This document shows, piece after piece, positions 3 through 8,075 of a stretch of DNA of 21,304 nucleotides. The notes below the pieces were generated by a model. That model worked only from the letters and a program-made list of their open reading frames with translations. It was not told the DNA's origin and searched no databases. Numbering within the stretch: the first letter of the stretch is position 1; each line of letters begins with the position of its first letter. Source of the stretch: a virus. The stretch lies in IMG/VR virus record IMGVR_UViG_3300006789_000221, positions 1 to 21,304 of that record. The stretch is one strand, 5' to 3'. The position numbers and the translations under genes were made by a program.

Positions 3-1886
3 ATTGCGATTGTGCGTGATTCAGACACGATGAGGTATTTTATAAACGGAGTATCGCAGGGTACAAGTGCTTTGTCAACTTCTTATTCAATTCCAAATAA
101 TAGTTATGAGTTAAGGATAGGTAATTTAGACTTTTCTTCGTGGAGTGATGATTGGGGTGGTAATTTAGATGAACTTAGAATTAGTAATACAGCTAGATGG
201 ACTTCTGGATTTACAGTACCAACAGAACGCTATATAAGTGATTCAAACACAAAACTACTCATACATGGAAATGAAGCTTACACAGGTGCATTAACAGACG
301 AGGCAACGCAGAGTTGCTATGACTTCGATGGTAGTGGAGATTATTTAACTGTACCAGACAGCAGTGAGTGGCGACTTGGTGGAGGCACTGGGGACTTCAC
401 TATAGACTTTTGGATAAACTTTAATGTCAACACAGGAAATCAAAAGTTCTTAGCACAATCAGTAGATGGGGACAACCAATGGAGGTTTTGCACAGGTGGG
501 TCAGGGATAAGCGATGGGATACAGTTTTTCGTTGTTGATGGGGCTGTTACTCAACACTGGCTACAATATGCTTGGTCGTTCTCTACTGGAGTATGGTATC
601 ATGTGGCATTGGTTAGGGAGAGTAATGTATTTGATATTTATATAGATGGAACAAGTGTTGCAAATACAACAGACACATCAGGTATTCCAGACCTTGCTAA
701 AGAGTTATCAATAGGAGAGGCTCTGGCTACAGGTTATTTAAATGCCAAGATGTGTGAAATAAGAATTTCAAACACAGCTAGATGGTCTTCTAATTTCACA
801 CCAGAAACAGAACGCTATACAAGCGATTCTAATACAAAATTACTTATACATGGAGACGAAACTAAAACAGGAACAACAGGGTCAGGAGCAACCTTCACCG
901 ACTCAGGAAATACAGGTCACACAGTTACAGAAAATGGCAATGCAATAGCTGAGAATGGTGGTACATTTACAGATAGCGGAGGAACTGGTCATACAGTTAC
1001 AGAAAATGGTAATGCAGTAAGAGACACAGATGTATATTCTCAGGTAAGTGGTAGTCGTACATTTATAATAGCAACACATGATGGTTCAGAAGCTACAGAT
1101 GGGGATTATAAAGTTGTTTCGTTTACATCATCTGGAACATTCACAATAACACAGCTAGATTCTGACGGACTAGGAGTTGATATATTTGTACTTGCTGGTG
1201 GTGGAGGTGGGGGTGAAATTGCAGGATCAGGTGGTGGTGGTGGCGGTGGGTTTTTAACAGGAGATGACATTCAAACATTAACCGCAACTTCGTACACAGT
1301 AACAGTGGGTGGAGGTGGTGCAGGTGGAACAGGTACAAGCCAAAATCCAGGTTCTGTTGGTAATGATTCTGTGTTTAGTGGTGCAACCGCAGATGGAGGT
1401 GGTGGTGGAAGTTCCCGAGCTACCATTGGAACTGCAGGTGGGTCAGGTTCTGGTGAAGGGTCAGGAGGGCACGGCCCGACAGCTGCAACACAAGGAAACA
1501 GTGGTGGATTAACTGGTTATGGAAATACAGGTGGAACAAAAGGGAGTACAAATGTAGGTGCTGGTGGAGGAGGAGCAGGGGCAGTTGGTGGTAATGGGTC
1601 TGGTAGCAATGCAGGGAATGGAGGAGCTGGTAAAGCAGATGATATAACAGGTTCGTCAGTAATATATGGCGGAGGTGGTGGTGGCGGTAAAGACCATACC
1701 GCAGGAACTCAAGGTATTGGAGGTACAGGCGGTGGTGGAAACGGTGGACATGGAGGAGGAGGGGCAGCTCCGGGGTATAATGGAACAGATGGATTAGGTG
1801 GCGGAGGTGGAGGTGGTTCAAGTAATCCGGGAGATGGTGGCTCTGGTGGCTCTGGTATAGTAATTATAAGGTATAAATTCCAATAA
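3..1886 (+). CDS. Tail fibre/adhesin with LamG-like domains and glycine-rich C-terminus (5' partial)
   Basis: This is the 3' part of a large virion protein. The reading frame is open to the window edge, and the residues encoded just before the first possible start (IAIVRDSDTMRYFINGV) sit in the middle of a LamG/concanavalin-like strand, so the true start lies upstream. One partial LamG-like domain (about residues 1-90) is followed by a second (about 100-290). Each ends in a similar segment containing SDSNTKLLIHG. Next come two 24-residue repeats (FTDSG.TGHTVTENGNA). From about residue 390 there is a very glycine-rich domain ending GGSGIVIIRYKFQ, a type found at the tips of phage adhesins. By family, LamG domains bind carbohydrate, and polyglycine tips contact host receptors. 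The likely role is host recognition at the tail. The downstream small gene is 14 bp away on the same strand. Confidence 0.85.
   Translation: MAIVRDSDTMRYFINGVSQGTSALSTSYSIPNNSYELRIGNLDFSSWSDDWGGNLDELRISNTARWTSGFTVPTERYISDSNTKLLIHGNEAYTGALTDEATQSCYDFDGSGDYLTVPDSSEWRLGGGTGDFTIDFWINFNVNTGNQKFLAQSVDGDNQWRFCTGGSGISDGIQFFVVDGAVTQHWLQYAWSFSTGVWYHVALVRESNVFDIYIDGTSVANTTDTSGIPDLAKELSIGEALATGYLNAKMCEIRISNTARWSSNFTPETERYTSDSNTKLLIHGDETKTGTTGSGATFTDSGNTGHTVTENGNAIAENGGTFTDSGGTGHTVTENGNAVRDTDVYSQVSGSRTFIIATHDGSEATDGDYKVVSFTSSGTFTITQLDSDGLGVDIFVLAGGGGGGEIAGSGGGGGGGFLTGDDIQTLTATSYTVTVGGGGAGGTGTSQNPGSVGNDSVFSGATADGGGGGSSRATIGTAGGSGSGEGSGGHGPTAATQGNSGGLTGYGNTGGTKGSTNVGAGGGGAGAVGGNGSGSNAGNGGAGKADDITGSSVIYGGGGGGGKDHTAGTQGIGGTGGGGNGGHGGGGAAPGYNGTDGLGGGGGGGSSNPGDGGSGGSGIVIIRYKFQ
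891..1016 (+). repeat. Two-copy 72-bp-period repeat inside the tail adhesin gene
   Basis: Two 54-bp segments, 891-944 and 963-1016, encode nearly the same peptide (TFTDSG[N/G]TGHTVTENGNA) with a 72-bp (24-codon) period. Many differences are synonymous, for example acc/aca and cac/cat. This suggests an old duplication kept by selection on the protein. It forms a linker between the second LamG domain and the glycine-rich tip. Confidence 0.8.
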
Positions 1887-1900
1887 CAAAAGGAGGGGCA

Positions 1901-2275
1901 ATGGCTCATTTTGCAGAAGTAGACGAAAACAATATAGTAAAGAGAGTGATTGTGGCAGAACAGGATTTTATAAATTCTGGTGCTGTTGGCGAATCCTCTA
2001 ACTGGATACAGACAAGTTATAATACAAAAGGGGGGATACATTATGCTCCTAATAGCAGTGAAGCTGATGGAGGTATTGCCTTGAGAAAGAATTATGCAGG
2101 GATTGGCTTTACATACGATAGTGATAGGGATGCTTTTTATGCATCACAACCCTATCCATCATGGACATTGAATGAAGATAGTTGTTTGTGGGAATCTCCA
2201 GTACCTTATCCAGACGATGATGAAATGTATGCATGGGATGAAGAAAATCAAGGTTGGGGCTTAATTGACATGTGA
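1901..2275 (+). CDS. Conserved small phage protein following the tail fibre (unknown function)
   Basis: A 124-aa acidic, aromatic-rich protein with a strong ribosome binding site (AAAGGAGGGG) just before the ATG. It has no signal peptide or membrane segment. The wording of the sequence (start MAHFAEVDENN, WIQTSYNT, RKNYAGIGFTYD, YPSWTLN, PVPYPDDD) matches a family I recall as common beside tail genes in marine and cyanobacterial phages, usually annotated hypothetical. It is co-directional with the adhesin gene and 14 bp downstream, so probably co-transcribed; a virion or tail-assembly role is an inference. Its last 15 bp overlap, tail to tail, the end of the leftward SbcC C-terminal gene. Confidence 0.85.
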   Translation: MAHFAEVDENNIVKRVIVAEQDFINSGAVGESSNWIQTSYNTKGGIHYAPNSSEADGGIALRKNYAGIGFTYDSDRDAFYASQPYPSWTLNEDSCLWESPVPYPDDDEMYAWDEENQGWGLIDM

Positions 2276-2887
2276 GATACCTTCTTTAAGTTTTACATTA
2301 AAAACTTTATCAGCTTCTTCTGAAAGACCTTCAATATGGGTAACTATAATGAATTGGATATTAAGTTTTTGACTTAGTTCCTTGAGCAACAAACTTGCTC
2401 TTGGAATTAAGTCTTTACTTAACCATTTAAATGGCTCATCTAATATTATTGTGTTCCTACTTTTTGGAGTTTGCAAAGTCCATAAAGCTATTCTAAGAGC
2501 AAATGAAGCAGTATCAACTACACCGCCTCCAGTACCATTTAAAGGATTTATAGTTTCCCCATCCTTCTCAAAAACTAGCTCACATTCAGTTTTATTCCTC
2601 TTAATCACAAACTCTATCTTGAATTTATAAGGATTATCAAAGATAGTCTCCAAAGCTGTTGATACAATATCCGAGATATGTATCTCTAATTGGGATTGTG
2701 TATCTTTAGCTACCTTTTGAATTATAACTTGTGCTCGTTCTGAATGTTTTATTGCTCTTGTGAGAGTTTTTCGTGATAATATAGCTGAAGATAAATTATT
2801 CTGTACCTCTTTAAACTGTCCTTTTTTTTGGTCTATATGTGACCTGAAATTCCTGATCTTGTAAGAATCATCACCCATCCATGTCAT
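2261..2887 (-). CDS. SbcC/Rad50-like ATPase, C-terminal lobe
   Basis: A 208-aa protein carrying only the C-terminal half of an SMC/Rad50-type ABC ATPase. Residues 20-80 are helical and coiled-coil-like. An ABC signature-like segment follows at about 117-132 (GTGGGVVDTASFALR), then Walker B at 147-152 (IILDEP, Asp150/Glu151) and the H-loop (VTH, His184). There is no Walker A; that lies on the separate 5318-5533 product. By family it should pair with the N-terminal lobe and the SbcD nuclease to form an ATP-dependent DNA end-processing complex. No convincing ribosome binding site precedes the ATG, and the gene overlaps the upstream coiled-coil gene by 17 bp in a different frame. Translation therefore probably depends on coupling (less likely, +1 frameshifting). 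It is the last leftward gene. Confidence 0.85.
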   Translation of the reverse strand: MTWMGDDSYKIRNFRSHIDQKKGQFKEVQNNLSSAILSRKTLTRAIKHSERAQVIIQKVAKDTQSQLEIHISDIVSTALETIFDNPYKFKIEFVIKRNKTECELVFEKDGETINPLNGTGGGVVDTASFALRIALWTLQTPKSRNTIILDEPFKWLSKDLIPRASLLLKELSQKLNIQFIIVTHIEGLSEEADKVFNVKLKEGISHVN

Positions 2888-3122
2888 CTTTATTTAAAAT
2901 GTTATTTATTTTTAGGATATTTTTTTCTATCTTCTTCTCTAAATTACTGGCTTTTTCTTCAAACTCTTTTAGTTTTTCCAACCCTTCTTCAAGGTTATTA
3001 CATGAGAATTGTTCTTTTAAGTAATCATAACATTGGTCTTTTTGTCCTTCAAGTTTTATTTTTTTAGTCTTATTAGATTCTATTCTACTTTTCAAATCTG
3101 CAAGGTCATTAGCTATATTCAT
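2871..3122 (-). CDS. Small coiled-coil protein, probable SbcC coiled-coil piece
   Basis: An 83-aa, highly charged, almost entirely helical protein with heptad-like spacing (for example NLEEGLEKLKEFEEKASNLE). An excellent ribosome binding site (AAAAGGAGATTAA, then ATG) makes the start certain. It lies between the SbcD gene and the SbcC C-terminal lobe, where a continuous SbcC would carry the returning arm of its coiled coil. I infer that it packs against the zinc-hook arm encoded at 4144-4833, but it could be an independent partner. It has a single Cys in QFSCNN and no CxxC. Its 3' end overlaps the C-terminal lobe gene by 17 bp. Confidence 0.75.
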   Translation of the reverse strand: MNIANDLADLKSRIESNKTKKIKLEGQKDQCYDYLKEQFSCNNLEEGLEKLKEFEEKASNLEKKIEKNILKINNILNKDDMDG

Positions 3123-3135
3123 TTAATCTCCTTTT

Positions 3136-3216
3136 CTATTCCCACCAAAGTAATGAAAGCATACCTAATGGGAACAACACTATACAAAATGTTATTATCA
3201 CTATCCGTCTTAACAT
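3136..3216 (-). CDS. 26-aa single-pass membrane peptide
   Basis: A very small ORF: MLRRIVIITFCIVLFPLGML followed by SLLWWE and a TAG stop. It has an excellent ribosome binding site (AGGAG 8 nt before ATG), positioned exactly between the SbcD stop and the next gene's ribosome binding site. The N-terminus is positively charged (RR) and is followed by about 20 hydrophobic residues, consistent with one membrane helix. No function is recognisable. The strong ribosome binding site and tight packing support a real gene, but it is too short for composition arguments. Confidence 0.6.
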   Translation of the reverse strand: MLRRIVIITFCIVLFPLGMLSLLWWE

Positions 3217-3233
3217 AATACTATCTCCTCTCC

Positions 3234-4144
3234 TCATGTTAAACTCTCCCATATTTTAGTTTTTGTCAGCTTCCCTGTGTTATTCTTATGCAAGAATTCT
3301 TTTAAATTTTCTTCAAAATTAAATCCAATTTCCTGATGATTCTTTAATCTACTCACAAAACTTTCTACTCTTTTATCTCTTTGTCCCTTCACTTCTATAT
3401 GTTCTCTGCTTATCACATCTTTTCCAATTGGCAAGTACACTCTATCTACTGTGTTGTCTTCAGCATACCAAAGGTAGACAGAGGGCTTATGGTCAATCTG
3501 ATTAGCTGACATTCTAGTAAGAGAGCCACAATTTACTAACCATCTCCCTTCATATTCAACACTAAACGATTGATGATTATCCCCTGTAACTATTAAATCA
3601 TAACAAGGATATTTTTCTAGATACCACTTAGCAGAGTGAGCTTCTTGGTCATGCCATAACTTCTCTTTCTGTGACTTAATAACCATTTTATGTACAAGAG
3701 CTATTTTACTTAACGCTTTTTCTTTTGGTTTTTGAGTTATAGTATCCGAATAATGAAATGGGAATATGACTGCTCCTTCAATACGAGTAGGCTTATTGAT
3801 CACTTCAAAATTATTCATTGACTTATTCAATACTCCCACTCCAGCTTCTTCCCACTTATCCAATCTGTGGTTAGGAAGGTCATGTTGTCCGCATACAGTT
3901 ATGATAGGAGAATAACAGAAATTTATGTCCATAAACCAATTCAATAATTTGTCACCCCACATTGGTTTGTGTCCGAAGTCTCCTGCAACAAGGATAGGGC
4001 AATTGTATTCATTAGACAAATTAAGAACATATGTAATTTTCTTTTTTTGTGCTTCCATGTAATCATCTGTTCTACAAATTGGTCTGTCACCTCTAATATG
4101 CCAATCTGAGGACAGGATACAAGTAGGAGTTTTATCAGGCACAC
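3234..4144 (-). CDS. sbcD: SbcD/Mre11-like metallophosphoesterase nuclease
   Basis: The nuclease subunit of an SbcCD-type complex, which by family cuts DNA ends using two metal ions under control of the SbcC ATPase. Numbering from the GTG at 4144 (302 aa), the motifs are SDWH (Asp13, His15), GDFGH (Asp55, His58), GQHD (85-88, in place of the usual GNHD), a histidine at about 151, and GDNH (187-190). An earlier GTG at 4157 is possible. The 4144 GTG is preferred because GGAGG lies 6 nt upstream, and because this start shares one base with the stop of the upstream SbcC middle gene (TAGTG), a classic coupled arrangement. The substitution in motif III (Gln for Asn) is worth noting but seems compatible with metal binding. 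Confidence 0.9.
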
Positions 4145-4833
4145 TACTCCCTCCCACATAAGGGACATATATTTGGCATAAGTTTATCGAATGTTTCTTG
4201 GTCTTTCTCTAATAACAAACTCTGTTTTTCAAGAGAATCCTCACAATCCTCAAGTTTTCTTAACAGATTATAAAGGTTTCTAGTCTTAGTTCCAAAGTCC
4301 AAGATTTTATCAATGCCCTTTTCAATTTTTATCACCTGCTTATTTGTATCACTTAAAGCAGGTAATTCTCCTAAGACTTCTTCACAATTTTCTATTCCTG
4401 CTAATATCTCAGAAAGTGTTTCAAAATCATTCTTTACACTCCTCAGTTCTTCATCCAAAGATTCTAATTCATTTAATGTTTTTTCAGCTTTCTCCAAGTA
4501 TTGGAATGCTTTTGACCTCTCTAGCAACCCTCTCTCAAGGTCATTTACCGCTTGTAGTTGTTGCCTTTCTTTGCGTAAAGTACTATTAATATTAGTGATC
4601 CCCAAATCAATTTGGTCTAGGTGAACAATTCGATTAAGGTACTTAGCAACTTCTCCTCCTGACATAGCAAGTAAAAAAGGAGAATCAAACTGGCTTGCCA
4701 TATTTAATGAAGAGAAATTCAACAAATCTTTTATGGCTGTTGGCACATCCCTATTAAACGCAGAATACTCTTCTTCATTAACTTCATATGTATTCTTGTT
4801 TTTTGATTTACATCGTTTTATTGTTATTTTCAT
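4144..4833 (-). CDS. SbcC/Rad50-like ATPase, middle piece: Q-loop, coiled coil and terminal zinc hook
   Basis: A 229-aa protein. Its start (MKITIKRCKSKNKNTYEV) reads like the strand that should follow directly after the end of the N-terminal lobe product (5318-5533). The Q-loop region is ASQFDSPFLL (Gln48). Residues about 80-215 are a long charged coiled coil. The protein ends in the zinc-hook motif CPLCGRE (Cys223, Cys226), so the hook is at the extreme C-terminus instead of the middle of a long coiled coil. Two such chains could share one zinc ion. The ATG is 2 nt after the stop of the membrane-protein gene (TAATTATG) with no well-placed ribosome binding site, so reinitiation is likely. The sequence is conserved in the ATPase motifs and not obviously decayed. 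Confidence 0.85.
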   Translation of the reverse strand: MKITIKRCKSKNKNTYEVNEEEYSAFNRDVPTAIKDLLNFSSLNMASQFDSPFLLAMSGGEVAKYLNRIVHLDQIDLGITNINSTLRKERQQLQAVNDLERGLLERSKAFQYLEKAEKTLNELESLDEELRSVKNDFETLSEILAGIENCEEVLGELPALSDTNKQVIKIEKGIDKILDFGTKTRNLYNLLRKLEDCEDSLEKQSLLLEKDQETFDKLMPNICPLCGRE

Positions 4834-4835
4834 AA

Positions 4836-5162
4836 TTATTTAAGAACCACCCACTCCTTCTCAGGAAACTTTTTAGTCGGAATATAAATGATAGCATCGT
4901 CTGTTTCTATTTTTAAAGTTGCTCTACTAGCAGAAATAATTTTTCCATCAACACTCCCACCTTCATGATGTAATCTCACTCTTGCTCCTATACCTATGAC
5001 TAGAGAACTCTTAAATTTTCTCCATGCAAATTCATTAAATAAAAAGGATTTCAAAGCAATTACTATGTAACCAACAACCATTAATTGGAAAAGAGCAAAC
5101 AAAAGCTCCCATTTCAGACCACCATGTACCATAGCTTTTATCACATTTGATGTTTCATCCAT
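4836..5162 (-). CDS. Small membrane protein with MscS-like beta domain, placed between two SbcC pieces
   Basis: A 108-aa protein read from the ATG at 5162, which has GGAGAGGGAGAG just upstream; the ATG at 5183 has no ribosome binding site. One hydrophobic helix (about residues 19-42, ELLFALFQLMVVGYIVIAL) is followed by a basic stretch (WRKFKSS) and a small beta-rich domain. The pattern IGIGARVRLHHEGG...GKIISAS.ATLKIETDD..IYIPTKKF recalls the Sm-like beta domain of MscS channels, where a glycine-rich loop and an IP[TN] turn are typical. It lacks the full channel helices. The function is unknown; a membrane anchor or regulator is possible. Its position between the Walker A piece and the rest of SbcC is unusual. 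The family match is moderate; the membrane helix is clear. Confidence 0.7.
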   Translation of the reverse strand: MDETSNVIKAMVHGGLKWELLFALFQLMVVGYIVIALKSFLFNEFAWRKFKSSLVIGIGARVRLHHEGGSVDGKIISASRATLKIETDDAIIYIPTKKFPEKEWVVLK

Positions 5163-5314
5163 CTCTCCCTCTCCACTTCCCATTCAGATTGCCATTCAAC
5201 CAGTATGTCAAGTACTTGTCTTTTTATTATCATCTGATGTCTTGGAACAAACTGTTCTATAGGCATATCTAATTCAAATATTTTATCTGCAACATGTTTT
5301 GCAGGTGTTATCAT
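5141..5314 (-). CDS. 57-aa hypothetical protein between SbcC N-terminal lobe and membrane protein
   Basis: A short ORF with a clear ribosome binding site (GAGGAGTAATTT before ATG). The product begins MITPAKHVADKIFELDMPIE and ends in a Trp/Glu/Arg-rich helix (WQSEWEVERERW). It starts 3 bp after the stop of the N-terminal lobe gene, and its 3' end overlaps the start of the membrane-protein gene by 22 bp. No signal peptide or membrane segment is seen and I recognise no family. With the membrane protein it makes up the 484-bp block (4834-5317) between two pieces of the ATPase. Confidence 0.65.
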   Translation of the reverse strand: MITPAKHVADKIFELDMPIEQFVPRHQMIIKRQVLDILVEWQSEWEVERERWMKHQM

Positions 5315-5317
5315 AAA

Positions 5318-5533
5318 TTACTCCTCGATAATTATTTTAACTTTAGTATCTCCTCCCCAATTACTTTTAAAAGCTTCCCCATTAGGTTTGTTGTTTACCA
5401 CCCAATTTAAAGCTCTTAAAATAGCAGACTTTCCACTATCACTTTGTCCTATAATGATATTTATACCCTCATCAAATTCAAGCTCAGTCTTCTCATGACT
5501 TTGAAAGTTCTGTATGGATAGAGAATCAATCAT
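5318..5533 (-). CDS. SbcC/Rad50-like ATPase, N-terminal lobe with Walker A (71 aa)
   Basis: The product begins MIDSLSIQNFQSHEKTELEF and contains a perfect Walker A (GQSDSGKS, residues 29-36), then ALNWVVNNKPNGEAF and a strand VKIIIEE at its end. This is the start of a phage SbcC-type ATPase; full-length N-lobes normally continue for another 80 or more residues into the Q-loop and coiled coil. Here a stop codon ends it at 71 aa, and the continuation is found 484 bp downstream at 4833. The ribosome binding site is strong (GGGAGGAG), and the start overlaps the upstream nuclease gene by 8 bp. The protein alone cannot be a working ATPase, so either it assembles with the other pieces or the transcript is processed. 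Confidence 0.85.
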   Translation of the reverse strand: MIDSLSIQNFQSHEKTELEFDEGINIIIGQSDSGKSAILRALNWVVNNKPNGEAFKSNWGGDTKVKIIIEE

Positions 5534-6059
5534 TGATAATCTCCTCCCTATCCATACATTGTAGAAAGTTATTCAATCTTGTTACGGCATAAGGTTCTAA
5601 GTATAAAGTGTCTTTTACAAGACCAAACTTAAAGTACTTGAAATCGCTTGCACGAAAGAAGATATAATCATCCTTCTTTCCATACAATTTAAAAATGATT
5701 ACAACAGGTTTAATGATAGAAAGATTATACATCTTTTCTAATTCTTCATTATACCATTTAAAAGGAAGAAAAGTATTAGTTAATAAATTATTGAAAGTAA
5801 TAGTTTTAACACTTTTACAATCAATCCATATTCCCAGTTTATCAGGATTAGGAAGAAATGTTATATCTCCAACAAAAGAAGTTTCTCCCCTTCTTGTTAT
5901 CGTAGACTTTGCACCACTCCCTGCCGTCCTCCAAAAGAAATCGTGGTTTTTCTTAGGAACTTGTTCTTGTGGGTTCATATCCCTATACCAGTTACTCAGT
6001 ATTCTGGATATTTTTATCTCATACAAATTTCCTTTTTTCTTTTGGTTTCCTTGTTTCAT
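5526..6059 (-). CDS. PD-(D/E)XK-type nuclease, possible Holliday-junction resolvase
   Basis: A 177-aa protein. The motif order fits the PD-(D/E)XK fold as used by Hjc/RecU-like resolvases: a basic N-terminus with KKGNLYE (Glu14), FWRTAGSGA (42-50), GDI (Asp65) and IDCKS (Asp80, Lys82), with Asp in place of the usual Glu in the ExK element. By family it would cut branched DNA using metal ions. It is followed directly by the SbcC/SbcD genes, consistent with a recombination or DNA-processing role. The ATG has AAGGTAAGGA just upstream. The resolvase assignment is an inference from motif spacing; it could instead be a repair or restriction-type nuclease. Confidence 0.7.
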   Translation of the reverse strand: MKQGNQKKKGNLYEIKISRILSNWYRDMNPQEQVPKKNHDFFWRTAGSGAKSTITRRGETSFVGDITFLPNPDKLGIWIDCKSVKTITFNNLLTNTFLPFKWYNEELEKMYNLSIIKPVVIIFKLYGKKDDYIFFRASDFKYFKFGLVKDTLYLEPYAVTRLNNFLQCMDREEIIND

Positions 6060-6084
6060 TCCTTACCTTTTAATGTGTTAAAAC

Positions 6085-6255
6085 TTATCTTATTTTATCC
6101 CATTGTTTTTCAATCTTATGACCAATACCAACAAAGCCAAACCCTGCTGCTACTGTTACAACTATCTTCGCTAATTCGACATGACCTAAACTGGTCAATA
6201 TCGCACTAACCCCTGCCAATCCTGCTGCTATCCATGTTTTATAACCTTTCATCAT
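6085..6255 (-). CDS. 56-aa two-helix membrane protein, holin-like
   Basis: Too short for a 60-aa cut-off, but it has a near-ideal ribosome binding site (TAGGAGGTAG, 8 nt from ATG). The product begins MMKGYKTWIAAGLAGVSAIL, has a short turn (TSLGHVE), a second hydrophobic helix (about 28-45, KIVVTVAAGFGFVGIG) and a charged tail (HKIEKQWDKIR). Two small Gly/Ala-rich helices with a basic C-terminus are typical of small phage holins and related membrane proteins, but there is no endolysin nearby to support a lysis role. A membrane protein is certain in character; its function is open. Confidence 0.7.
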   Translation of the reverse strand: MMKGYKTWIAAGLAGVSAILTSLGHVELAKIVVTVAAGFGFVGIGHKIEKQWDKIR

Positions 6256-6283
6256 CTTTACTACCTCCTATTAAAATTCAAAA

Positions 6284-7009
6284 TTACTTAACAGCTATCC
6301 ATCCTGCAAAATTCATCCATCTCCAGAAACAATCTATCTGTGTGAAACCGCTTGTCCTCAACATTTCCTCATTCCATTTTGCGGTAACTGGAACAAGAAC
6401 TCCTTCTAAAGAAAGTCTTTTTCTTGAAATCTGCTCTTCTGAGTAACCATTATCCTTTTTCATCTTGTAATACACATCTTTGAAATTTCTGTCAAGGTCT
6501 GCGGAATTCCCTATAACTTTTTCCACAAGTATGAAACAACCACCTTCCTGAAGAGTGTCATATACATTCTTTAAAATCTGTAATCTGTATTCAATAGGAG
6601 TAAACTGTATTGTAAGAACAGACAATATAACAGAAGTAAACATTTGCGGTGAAGGGAAGTTGTTTCTTAGGTCTATGTTATGAACAGACACATTCTTATG
6701 TTTTTTAAACCGTTTCTCCGCAACTTCTAACATTGGAACTGACATATCACAACAAATAAAATCATTTGATGCGAACTCCTCGACCAATGGAGCTATAGCT
6801 TCTCCTCTAGAACAACCCAAATCCATGACACAAGTTTCCTTTTTCATGTATTTCTTAATCAAGTCATTCACAGATGCCCTCATAAGTTCGTATTCAGGAA
6901 TAGACCTTTTCAACATATCATCAAAAGCATTAGTCACATCCTGATTGAAACCCCATCTTCCGTCTGGATTTACCATGTCAACACAGTAATTAGTATCAAT
7001 ACCACTCAT
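6284..7009 (-). CDS. CmoA-like class I SAM-dependent methyltransferase
   Basis: A 241-aa protein. The Rossmann motif I is MDLGCSRGE (62-70) and motif II is CCDMSVPM. The whole length follows CmoA (carboxy-S-adenosylmethionine synthase): WGFNQDVTNAFDDMLKRSIP resembles CmoA's WTFDERV..VF.DMI.RS.P; the SVLTIQF segment matches its LNFTLQF; and NGYSEEQISRKRLSLEGVL matches its NGYSE.EIS.KR..LENV, including the KR pair near the carboxylate-binding site. CmoA makes Cx-SAM for a tRNA wobble-uridine modification. Whether this enzyme makes Cx-SAM or is an ordinary methyltransferase of the same family is undecided. It overlaps the end of the DNA cytosine methyltransferase gene by 14 bp, so the two are co-expressed. 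Confidence 0.8.
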   Translation of the reverse strand: MSGIDTNYCVDMVNPDGRWGFNQDVTNAFDDMLKRSIPEYELMRASVNDLIKKYMKKETCVMDLGCSRGEAIAPLVEEFASNDFICCDMSVPMLEVAEKRFKKHKNVSVHNIDLRNNFPSPQMFTSVILSVLTIQFTPIEYRLQILKNVYDTLQEGGCFILVEKVIGNSADLDRNFKDVYYKMKKDNGYSEEQISRKRLSLEGVLVPVTAKWNEEMLRTSGFTQIDCFWRWMNFAGWIAVK

Positions 7010-8075
7010 AACCTAATTTCCTCCCTATGGTTTCAATAACTGGAATTGTAACAGTTCTACCACATCTCTCCCATCGTTCTGAATTAGATACCAATGTACC
7101 GTCATCATAATACTTTGTGAAATCATCTGGAAGTCCTTGCAATCTTTCACATTCTAACGGAGTGAGTTTTCGTATATCATTGTATCCGTTAGATTCAGTA
7201 TACACTCCATGACGGTCTTGTACACCTACTGTATGAGCTATCTCACCGTCCTCTTTGAATCTCCTTCCTCTTTGTCTTTTATCTACTCTATCTGGAGTTA
7301 AACAGGGTTTTACAACGAAAGGTACGTTATTACCGCCAGTTCCCATATTTGCAGTAAGTGTTGGGACACCATCACCTTTATGGTCTCTGAAATAACCCCT
7401 TCTCCATTGTTTTATGAAAGTCCTAGTTCCACCACCTTTTGTGTAATGAGCGTCTAGAGTTCCTGTGTATTTATTACCTTTGTTATAAATCCCTTCCCTG
7501 CCTTTTTGTTCTTCATATCCTTTTTTACCATTCTGTCCTTCTGAGCCTCCGATAGGAAAAACTTTTGGTCTGGATTCTGTTCTAAGATTTCCAACAATGA
7601 ATAACCTTTCCCTGTGTTGTGGGACTCCGAAGTTTTTGCTGTTAAGCACTTCCCATTGAACGTCATACCCAAGTTCATCCAACGAAGAGAGGATGACTGA
7701 CATAGTTCTTCCGTTGTCGTGATTGAGGAGTCCTTTGACGTTCTCAAGGAGCACATAAGGGATTTTTGTAGACCGTAAGATTTTGCAGATTTCAAAAAAG
7801 AGTGTTCCTCTGGTGTCAGATGTACAGAATCCTGTTTGCTTTCCTGCAACGCTAAAAGTTGCACAAGGAAATCCTGCGGTGAGTAAATCTGCTTTAGGGA
7901 TTTCTTCTCCTGTGACTTCTCTAATATCTTGCTCATTAGGATATTCTCCAAAATTACGTTTATAAATTCTTCTAGGTCTTTCTAACCACTCATTAGCCCA
8001 TACACATTCATGTCCTGCTAACTCTAAACCTACTCGGAAACCACCAATTCCTGCAAACAGTTCTATGAATTTCAT
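6996..8075 (-). CDS. dcm: DNA (cytosine-5-)-methyltransferase
   Basis: A 359-aa protein with the ordered C5-methyltransferase motifs: I FAGIGGFRVGLE (7-18), IV GFPCATFS with catalytic Cys71, VI ENVKG (111-115), VIII QHRERLFIVG (153-162), a variable target-recognition region (about 190-300), IX RKLTPLECERLQGLPDDF, and X CGRTVTIPV. It methylates the C5 of cytosine in a specific short site, most likely to shield phage DNA from host restriction. No cognate restriction enzyme is present. In motif X the usual Asn of the GN[AS]V element is Arg (GRTV), a departure from the family. The start is the first ATG. The recognition site cannot be read from the sequence. Confidence 0.92.
   Translation of the reverse strand: MKFIELFAGIGGFRVGLELAGHECVWANEWLERPRRIYKRNFGEYPNEQDIREVTGEEIPKADLLTAGFPCATFSVAGKQTGFCTSDTRGTLFFEICKILRSTKIPYVLLENVKGLLNHDNGRTMSVILSSLDELGYDVQWEVLNSKNFGVPQHRERLFIVGNLRTESRPKVFPIGGSEGQNGKKGYEEQKGREGIYNKGNKYTGTLDAHYTKGGGTRTFIKQWRRGYFRDHKGDGVPTLTANMGTGGNNVPFVVKPCLTPDRVDKRQRGRRFKEDGEIAHTVGVQDRHGVYTESNGYNDIRKLTPLECERLQGLPDDFTKYYDDGTLVSNSERWERCGRTVTIPVIETIGRKLGYEWY

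Follow-up and report, generated by a model that had tools for sequence, protein, structure and literature searches.

We analysed a stretch of viral DNA of 21,304 bases (virus record IMGVR_UViG_3300006789_000221; a single contig), referred to below as the window. On its minus strand lies a rad50/sbcD operon in which the Rad50 (SbcC) ATPase is encoded by separate open reading frames (ORFs). The order of transcription is orf56, a PDDEXK endonuclease gene, N71, ORF57, ORF115, Q229, SbcD, cc83 and C208. An earlier note, made from the letters of the sequence, had listed four Rad50 ORFs with SbcD among them. All of these were found where it had placed them, on the minus strand, but its inventory had overlooked ORF57 and ORF115 between N71 and Q229. 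The features of the operon are as follows.

5318–5533, minus strand: N71, N-terminal fragment of Rad50 (ORF; matches phrog_16465, AAA_15 and AAA_23)
5141–5314, minus strand: ORF57, first gene of a displaced pair (homologous copies in relatives L016–L029)
4836–5183, minus strand: ORF115, second gene of the displaced pair (likely start MDETSN at 5162)
4144–4833, minus strand: Q229, the rest of the N-lobe with the ascending coiled coil and hook (ORF; matches phrog_16465)
3234–4157, minus strand: SbcD/Mre11-like nuclease subunit (Metallophos_2, 8.1e-7, and Metallophos)
2871–3122, minus strand: cc83, a separate coiled-coil protein of ~80 residues (profile matches in 55 distinct ORFs)
2261–2887, minus strand: C208, C-terminal half of Rad50 (matches phrog_15167, SMC_N and NCBIfam Rad50)

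Rad50 motifs on separate reading frames

N71 and Q229 match consecutive stretches of one profile, phrog_16465, a phage family of 491 positions labelled 'exonuclease' (positions 5–73, E 7.5e-22, and positions 76–300, E 6.7e-12, respectively), and are thus two parts of one protein. N71 also matches the Pfam families AAA_15 (2.7e-15) and AAA_23 (5.6e-15) above cut-off and is 66–80% identical to the intact N-halves of close relatives, with 79% identity to that of L031. C208 matches phrog_15167, labelled 'ATPase', over its full length (3.9e-31), as well as SMC_N (2.6e-6) and positions 684–875 of the NCBIfam Rad50 model (4.4e-9). The family matches of all three products are far beyond chance.

The motifs expected of an SbcC/Rad50 protein are distributed over these products. 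N71 holds strands 1 and 2, the Walker A motif GQSDSGKS, the first helix and the first strand of a broken hairpin. In Q229, the Q-loop glutamine Q48 is invariant across 13 aligned homologues, as are R7, N14, Y16, the PFLL of residues 52–55, C223 and C226. The invariant CPLC zinc hook at residues 223–226 forms the end of the chain and does not join two coils. C208 carries a short coil, the signature TGGGVVD, the Walker B motif IILDEP, a D-loop and the H-loop VTH. The linked gene at 3234–4157 belongs to the Metallophos families, and its SbcD product is 57–65% identical in the closest relatives. A single polypeptide with both lobes and the hook is found neither here nor in any relative examined; the corresponding parts are separate ORFs throughout. 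The profile matches bear out the proposal of the earlier note that Walker A, the Q-loop with the hook, and Walker B lie on different genes. Its statement that the conserved motifs are intact holds as well, with 62 of 64 near-invariant alignment columns kept.

The hook split and the small coiled-coil protein in related phages

Relatives were gathered by scans from C208, N71, the full N-half and the Q region. The record of the window itself and records very close to it were excluded from these scans, so that closer, unseen kin may exist. Wherever both regions are present in a relative, Walker A and the Q-loop lie in one ORF that stops a few residues past the hook. The N-half ends at the hook in all 78 distinct N-halves uncut by a contig end, none of which is shorter than 298 residues, in agreement with the statement in the earlier note that phage relatives are divided at this point. 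N-half, coiled coil and C-half are three ORFs in 45 loci with distinct N-halves. The order is SbcD, after or near it an ORF of ~80 residues, then a C-half of ~200 residues, and the window has the same separate small coiled coil and C-half. The isolate Bacillus phage vB_BboS-125 has the same set, as gp32 (471 residues), gp34 (78 residues) and gp35 (211 residues). Both the division at the hook and the small coiled coil are therefore older than the phage of the window. As read from these gene sets, Rad50 is a three-chain protein in a large group of phages, and its two halves are not linked covalently through the hook.

The profile of the small coiled-coil protein collects 55 distinct ORFs with a median length of 80 residues, none fused to another piece. 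The earlier note had counted the 83-residue coiled coil among the split pieces. It is instead a fixed, separate gene throughout the hook-split family, nearly constant in length, and its length is uncorrelated with that of the N-half (r = 0.03, 51 pairs). A broken-off descending coil can be ruled out, because the protein stays at ~80 residues while N-halves span 298–407 residues. The protein probably folds as a helical hairpin whose turn has the sequence [FW]xCx[ST]xEE, and cc83 is probably a dedicated subunit of the hook-split phage Rad50. No consistent family name for proteins of the cc83 type was found in Pfam or PHROGs, nor was a published description of such a subunit. This component constitutes a second result, more general than the break in the N-lobe of the window.

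Three observations on individual relatives are noted here. In vB_BboS-125 (L143, 2084–2656), a gene with an AP2 domain separates the N-half from the gene of the small coiled coil, and could be a relic of a homing endonuclease that made the hook split. The N-halves of L010 and L009 end in CPIFDVPC (CPIF...C) in place of CXXC, possibly a variant zinc hook. Contig L224 (NZBI01000015.1), binned as a metagenome-assembled genome of Nanoarchaeota, carries a phage N-half 53% identical to that of L031. Its N-half score and its identity to L031 equal those of L019, so that L224 looks like a phage contig.

A second break between Walker A and the Q-loop

The N-half of the window is cut once more, between N71 and Q229. 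From the Q-loop side, 174 distinct relatives were reached, and 172 of them have the P-loop upstream in the same ORF. Of the other two, L009 begins within the gene, at a contig end, and L222, in which the P-loop pattern gave no match, has a degenerate P-loop, GQTDACKS, in the same frame. The break is thus present in none of the 174, and an N-half continuous from P-loop to hook is lacking in the window only. No other contig matched a degenerate pattern for the junction, and the same break was not found in protein scans that started from N71, Q229, the full N-half or the Q region, nor in bacterial and archaeal genomes, examined through the Q-region check alone. A single-sequence scan with Q229 and a tblastn search with Q229 against isolated phages gave no matches, which is due to the fast divergence of this part. 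Searches of the open-licence literature yielded no account of a phage Rad50 that is split. The homologue search that the earlier note had called for thus returned no related phage with the same break point, and its view of the N-lobe break as the new element agrees with this result. We conclude that this phage Rad50, already in three parts, has undergone a further split, and that the split is real and unusual.

The cut is precise. Placed end to end, N71 and Q229 are 1–2 residues longer than the N-halves of relatives in the alignment, so no Rad50 residue was removed. The break corresponds to residues 70–72 of the intact L031 protein, in the turn between the predicted strands 63–69 and 72–78. 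In a predicted model of L031, this hairpin turn comes after the P-loop helix. The model has a predicted local distance difference test (pLDDT) score of 80.6 and matches the Rad50 structures 1f2u and 1ii8; its low overall predicted template modelling (pTM) score of 0.39 is attributed to the long coil. The mean distance to outgroups is 0.53 for N71 (0.57, 0.53 and 0.63 for L031, L002 and L019) and 1.30 for Q229 (1.22, 1.26 and 1.32), and the relative rates of the two pieces are not raised against these three relatives. Start and stop codons are present on each side of the insert, Shine-Dalgarno-like GGAG/GAGGAG sequences precede N71 and ORF57, and the ATG of Q229 lies two bases past the ORF115 stop.

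The break is caused by a 480-bp block consisting of ORF57 and ORF115. Copies of ORF57 with 57–82% identity lie beside ORF115 in L016–L029, and relatives of ORF115 are 73–78% identical. DNA homology to L016 and L023 extends from the ORF57 ATG to near the ORF115 stop. Neither gene gave a family match in library searches; the predicted fold of ORF115 is a membrane helix with a small beta barrel (model pLDDT 66). A homing endonuclease as the splitting agent was considered and rejected, since neither inserted gene is recognisable as one. A frameshift or sequencing error in the N-half was likewise ruled out, the two pieces being 485 bp apart with an insert homologous to real genes. The neighbouring genes and the flanking repeat are as follows.

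6085–6255, minus strand: orf56, a small hydrophobic protein (91% identical in L016/L018)
5526–6059, minus strand: PDDEXK endonuclease, directly upstream of N71 (PF24608, 5.2e-11)
5328–5337, minus strand: AAATAATTAT, left one of two copies of a 10-bp direct repeat on either side of the block
4832–4841, minus strand: AAATAATTAT, right copy, overlapping the ORF115 stop and the Q229 start

In viral contigs, ORF57 and ORF115 come after orf56 in a late-gene block, with orf56 directly upstream of ORF57 and overlapping its start in L016 and L018; this block precedes a protein that, judged by eye, resembles the large terminase subunit. In L019–L021, the phages whose gene order comes closest to that of the window, an intact N-half is immediately followed by ORF115 without ORF57. 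The PDDEXK endonuclease gene also precedes an intact N-half in L035 and L040. In the window, orf56 is two genes upstream of ORF57, and the block is divided because the endonuclease gene and N71 lie between them. Either a local swap of blocks or a pair of insertions would account for this division. The chance of a shared 10-mer at such pairs of positions is ~0.3% for random and 1.2% for AT-matched sequence, and the repeat may stem from a target duplication or from joining at a microhomology. N71 is nearest to L031-like phages (distance 0.27, vs 0.53 to L019), whereas Q229 is nearer L019 (0.66, vs 0.84 to L031). These opposite affinities hint at recombination near the break.

Further genes of the region are noted for completeness. 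A possible 33-residue membrane peptide lies between SbcD and cc83 (3136–3237, minus strand; ATGA overlap with the SbcD stop), and may be set beside gp47.1 of phage T4, a 46-residue membrane protein proposed as an anchor for gp46-gp47 (PMC5105663). Upstream of orf56 are a CmoA-like carboxy-SAM synthase gene (6284–7009, minus strand; TIGR00740, 3.6e-44) and, overlapping it, a cytosine-C5 methyltransferase gene (6996–8075, minus strand). The methyltransferase has the C-terminal motif CGRTVTIPV, with Arg at a position that we take to be usually Asn. This pair resembles CmoA-CmoX of phage S-B43, which makes 5-carboxymethylcytosine (PMC12783734), with the SPPC motif of S-B43 reading GFPC in the window.

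Proposed assembly from pieces, alternatives and known systems

Considering that both N-half fragments look intact, the ATP site may be built from several small proteins. We propose a phage Mre11-Rad50 complex in which Rad50 would be made as separate chains. The family-wide part of this arrangement is seen in the relatives: an N-half running to the zinc hook and a C-half that holds the signature, Walker B and the H-loop, together with the small coiled-coil protein. In the window, the N-half is cut again by ORF57-ORF115 in the beta-hairpin turn past the P-loop helix. The same operon would supply the 71-residue P-loop piece and the 229-residue piece with Q-loop, coil and hook as separate translation products; for Q229, termination at the ORF115 stop followed by reinitiation is probable, as the sequence TAATTATG suggests. 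N71 and Q229 would then come together again across the cut hairpin and join C208, each ATP site being composed of N71, Q229 and C208, with SbcD as the nuclease. That the locus encodes an ABC (ATP-binding cassette) ATPase in pieces, comparable to the split NrdA of phage Aeh1 and still functional, is on the sequence evidence probable. The fuller claim is put forward more tentatively, with slightly less than even credence: a working Rad50 ATPase whose nucleotide site would come from three non-covalent chains (one a free peptide of 71 residues that carries Walker A, one with the Q-loop and the hook, and one with the signature, Walker B and the H-loop), together with a conserved, dedicated coiled-coil subunit of ~80 residues.

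Several points weigh against a functional assembly. The start of Q229 is without a strong Shine-Dalgarno sequence, and a P-loop fragment of 71 residues, its beta edges exposed, may be unable to fold by itself. The break is known from a single contig, no second genome with it having been found in the scans made. A rival reading is a recent inactivation, in which the gene pair destroyed rad50, the motifs survive only through the little time elapsed, and the phage lives without Rad50 or uses the host SbcCD. The uniqueness of the break among 174 relatives and the 79% identity of N71 to L031 are compatible with such a young event. However, the insertion falls exactly in a surface turn with no residues lost, usable start and stop codons flank it on both sides, all motifs are kept with no increase in rate, and the C-half, coiled-coil and SbcD genes are intact too. 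Inactivation is therefore, in our view, unlikely, though the alternative to be taken most seriously. The earlier note held that the arrangement is not simple decay. This is favoured by the evidence but not proved by it, as a very recent insertion, seen in one contig, would look alike.

An artefact, whether two misjoined DNA molecules or one rare defective genome that was assembled, might be suspected from the presence of ORF57-ORF115 relatives in many contigs. It would need two independent joins, both at the same hairpin turn; the longest sequence common to both junctions is 10 bp, too short for assembly k-mers, and ORF57-ORF115 of the window are only 57–82% identical to known copies. We regard an artefact as improbable. 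Even less credible is an insert that is spliced out (group I/II intron) or bypassed, as in the hop of T4 gene 60, to restore the full N-half. Introns do insert precisely and leave the host sequence complete, but the region 1800–6400 has no Rfam match up to E = 1, the insert folds no better than its shuffles (z 0.69) and is taken up by two ORFs whose counterparts in other genomes are ordinary genes, and Q229 has its own start codon. A self-splicing intron was thus rejected for want of an intron RNA core.

If the pieces do assemble, the locus would provide an ABC ATPase split by nature between Walker A and the Q-loop, in which each lobe could be titrated, labelled or swapped separately and which would show how much covalent continuity the ABC ATPase fold needs. 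A three-chain Rad50 with a conserved coiled-coil partner in dozens of genomes would, moreover, make the role of hook and coil in Rad50 directly testable.

The closest known system is the hook-split Rad50 of the vB_BboS-125 type (phrog_16465 with phrog_15167), which shares the CPLC-ended N-half, the small coiled-coil ORF and the C-half of ~210 residues. Its N-half is one chain of 471 residues, whereas that of the window is cut past the P-loop segment into 71 and 229 residues. Crystal structures of Rad50 have been made with separate N and C segments. In the catalytic domain of Pyrococcus furiosus Rad50 (1f2u, 1f2t), the N and C ATPase segments are separate chains in one active site, but unlike in the window there is no break inside the N-terminal segment. 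T4 gp46-gp47 is also a phage Mre11-Rad50 complex, serving recombination and replication; gp46 is a single chain of 63.6 kDa (PMC5105663), in contrast to the separate chains here. Enzyme genes in separately translated fragments able to assemble are represented by NrdA of Aeromonas phage Aeh1, which is fully active when split, and by gp43A/gp43B of phage 25, which co-purify with polymerase activity (PMC2988022). In those cases a homing endonuclease gene is, or may be, the inserted element, whereas the window has a displaced gene pair with no recognised endonuclease, and the enzyme is an ABC ATPase, already in three parts, cut between Walker A and the Q-loop. The gene-in-pieces arrangement was thus already known; new within what was searched are the enzyme class, the position of the cut and the inserted cargo.

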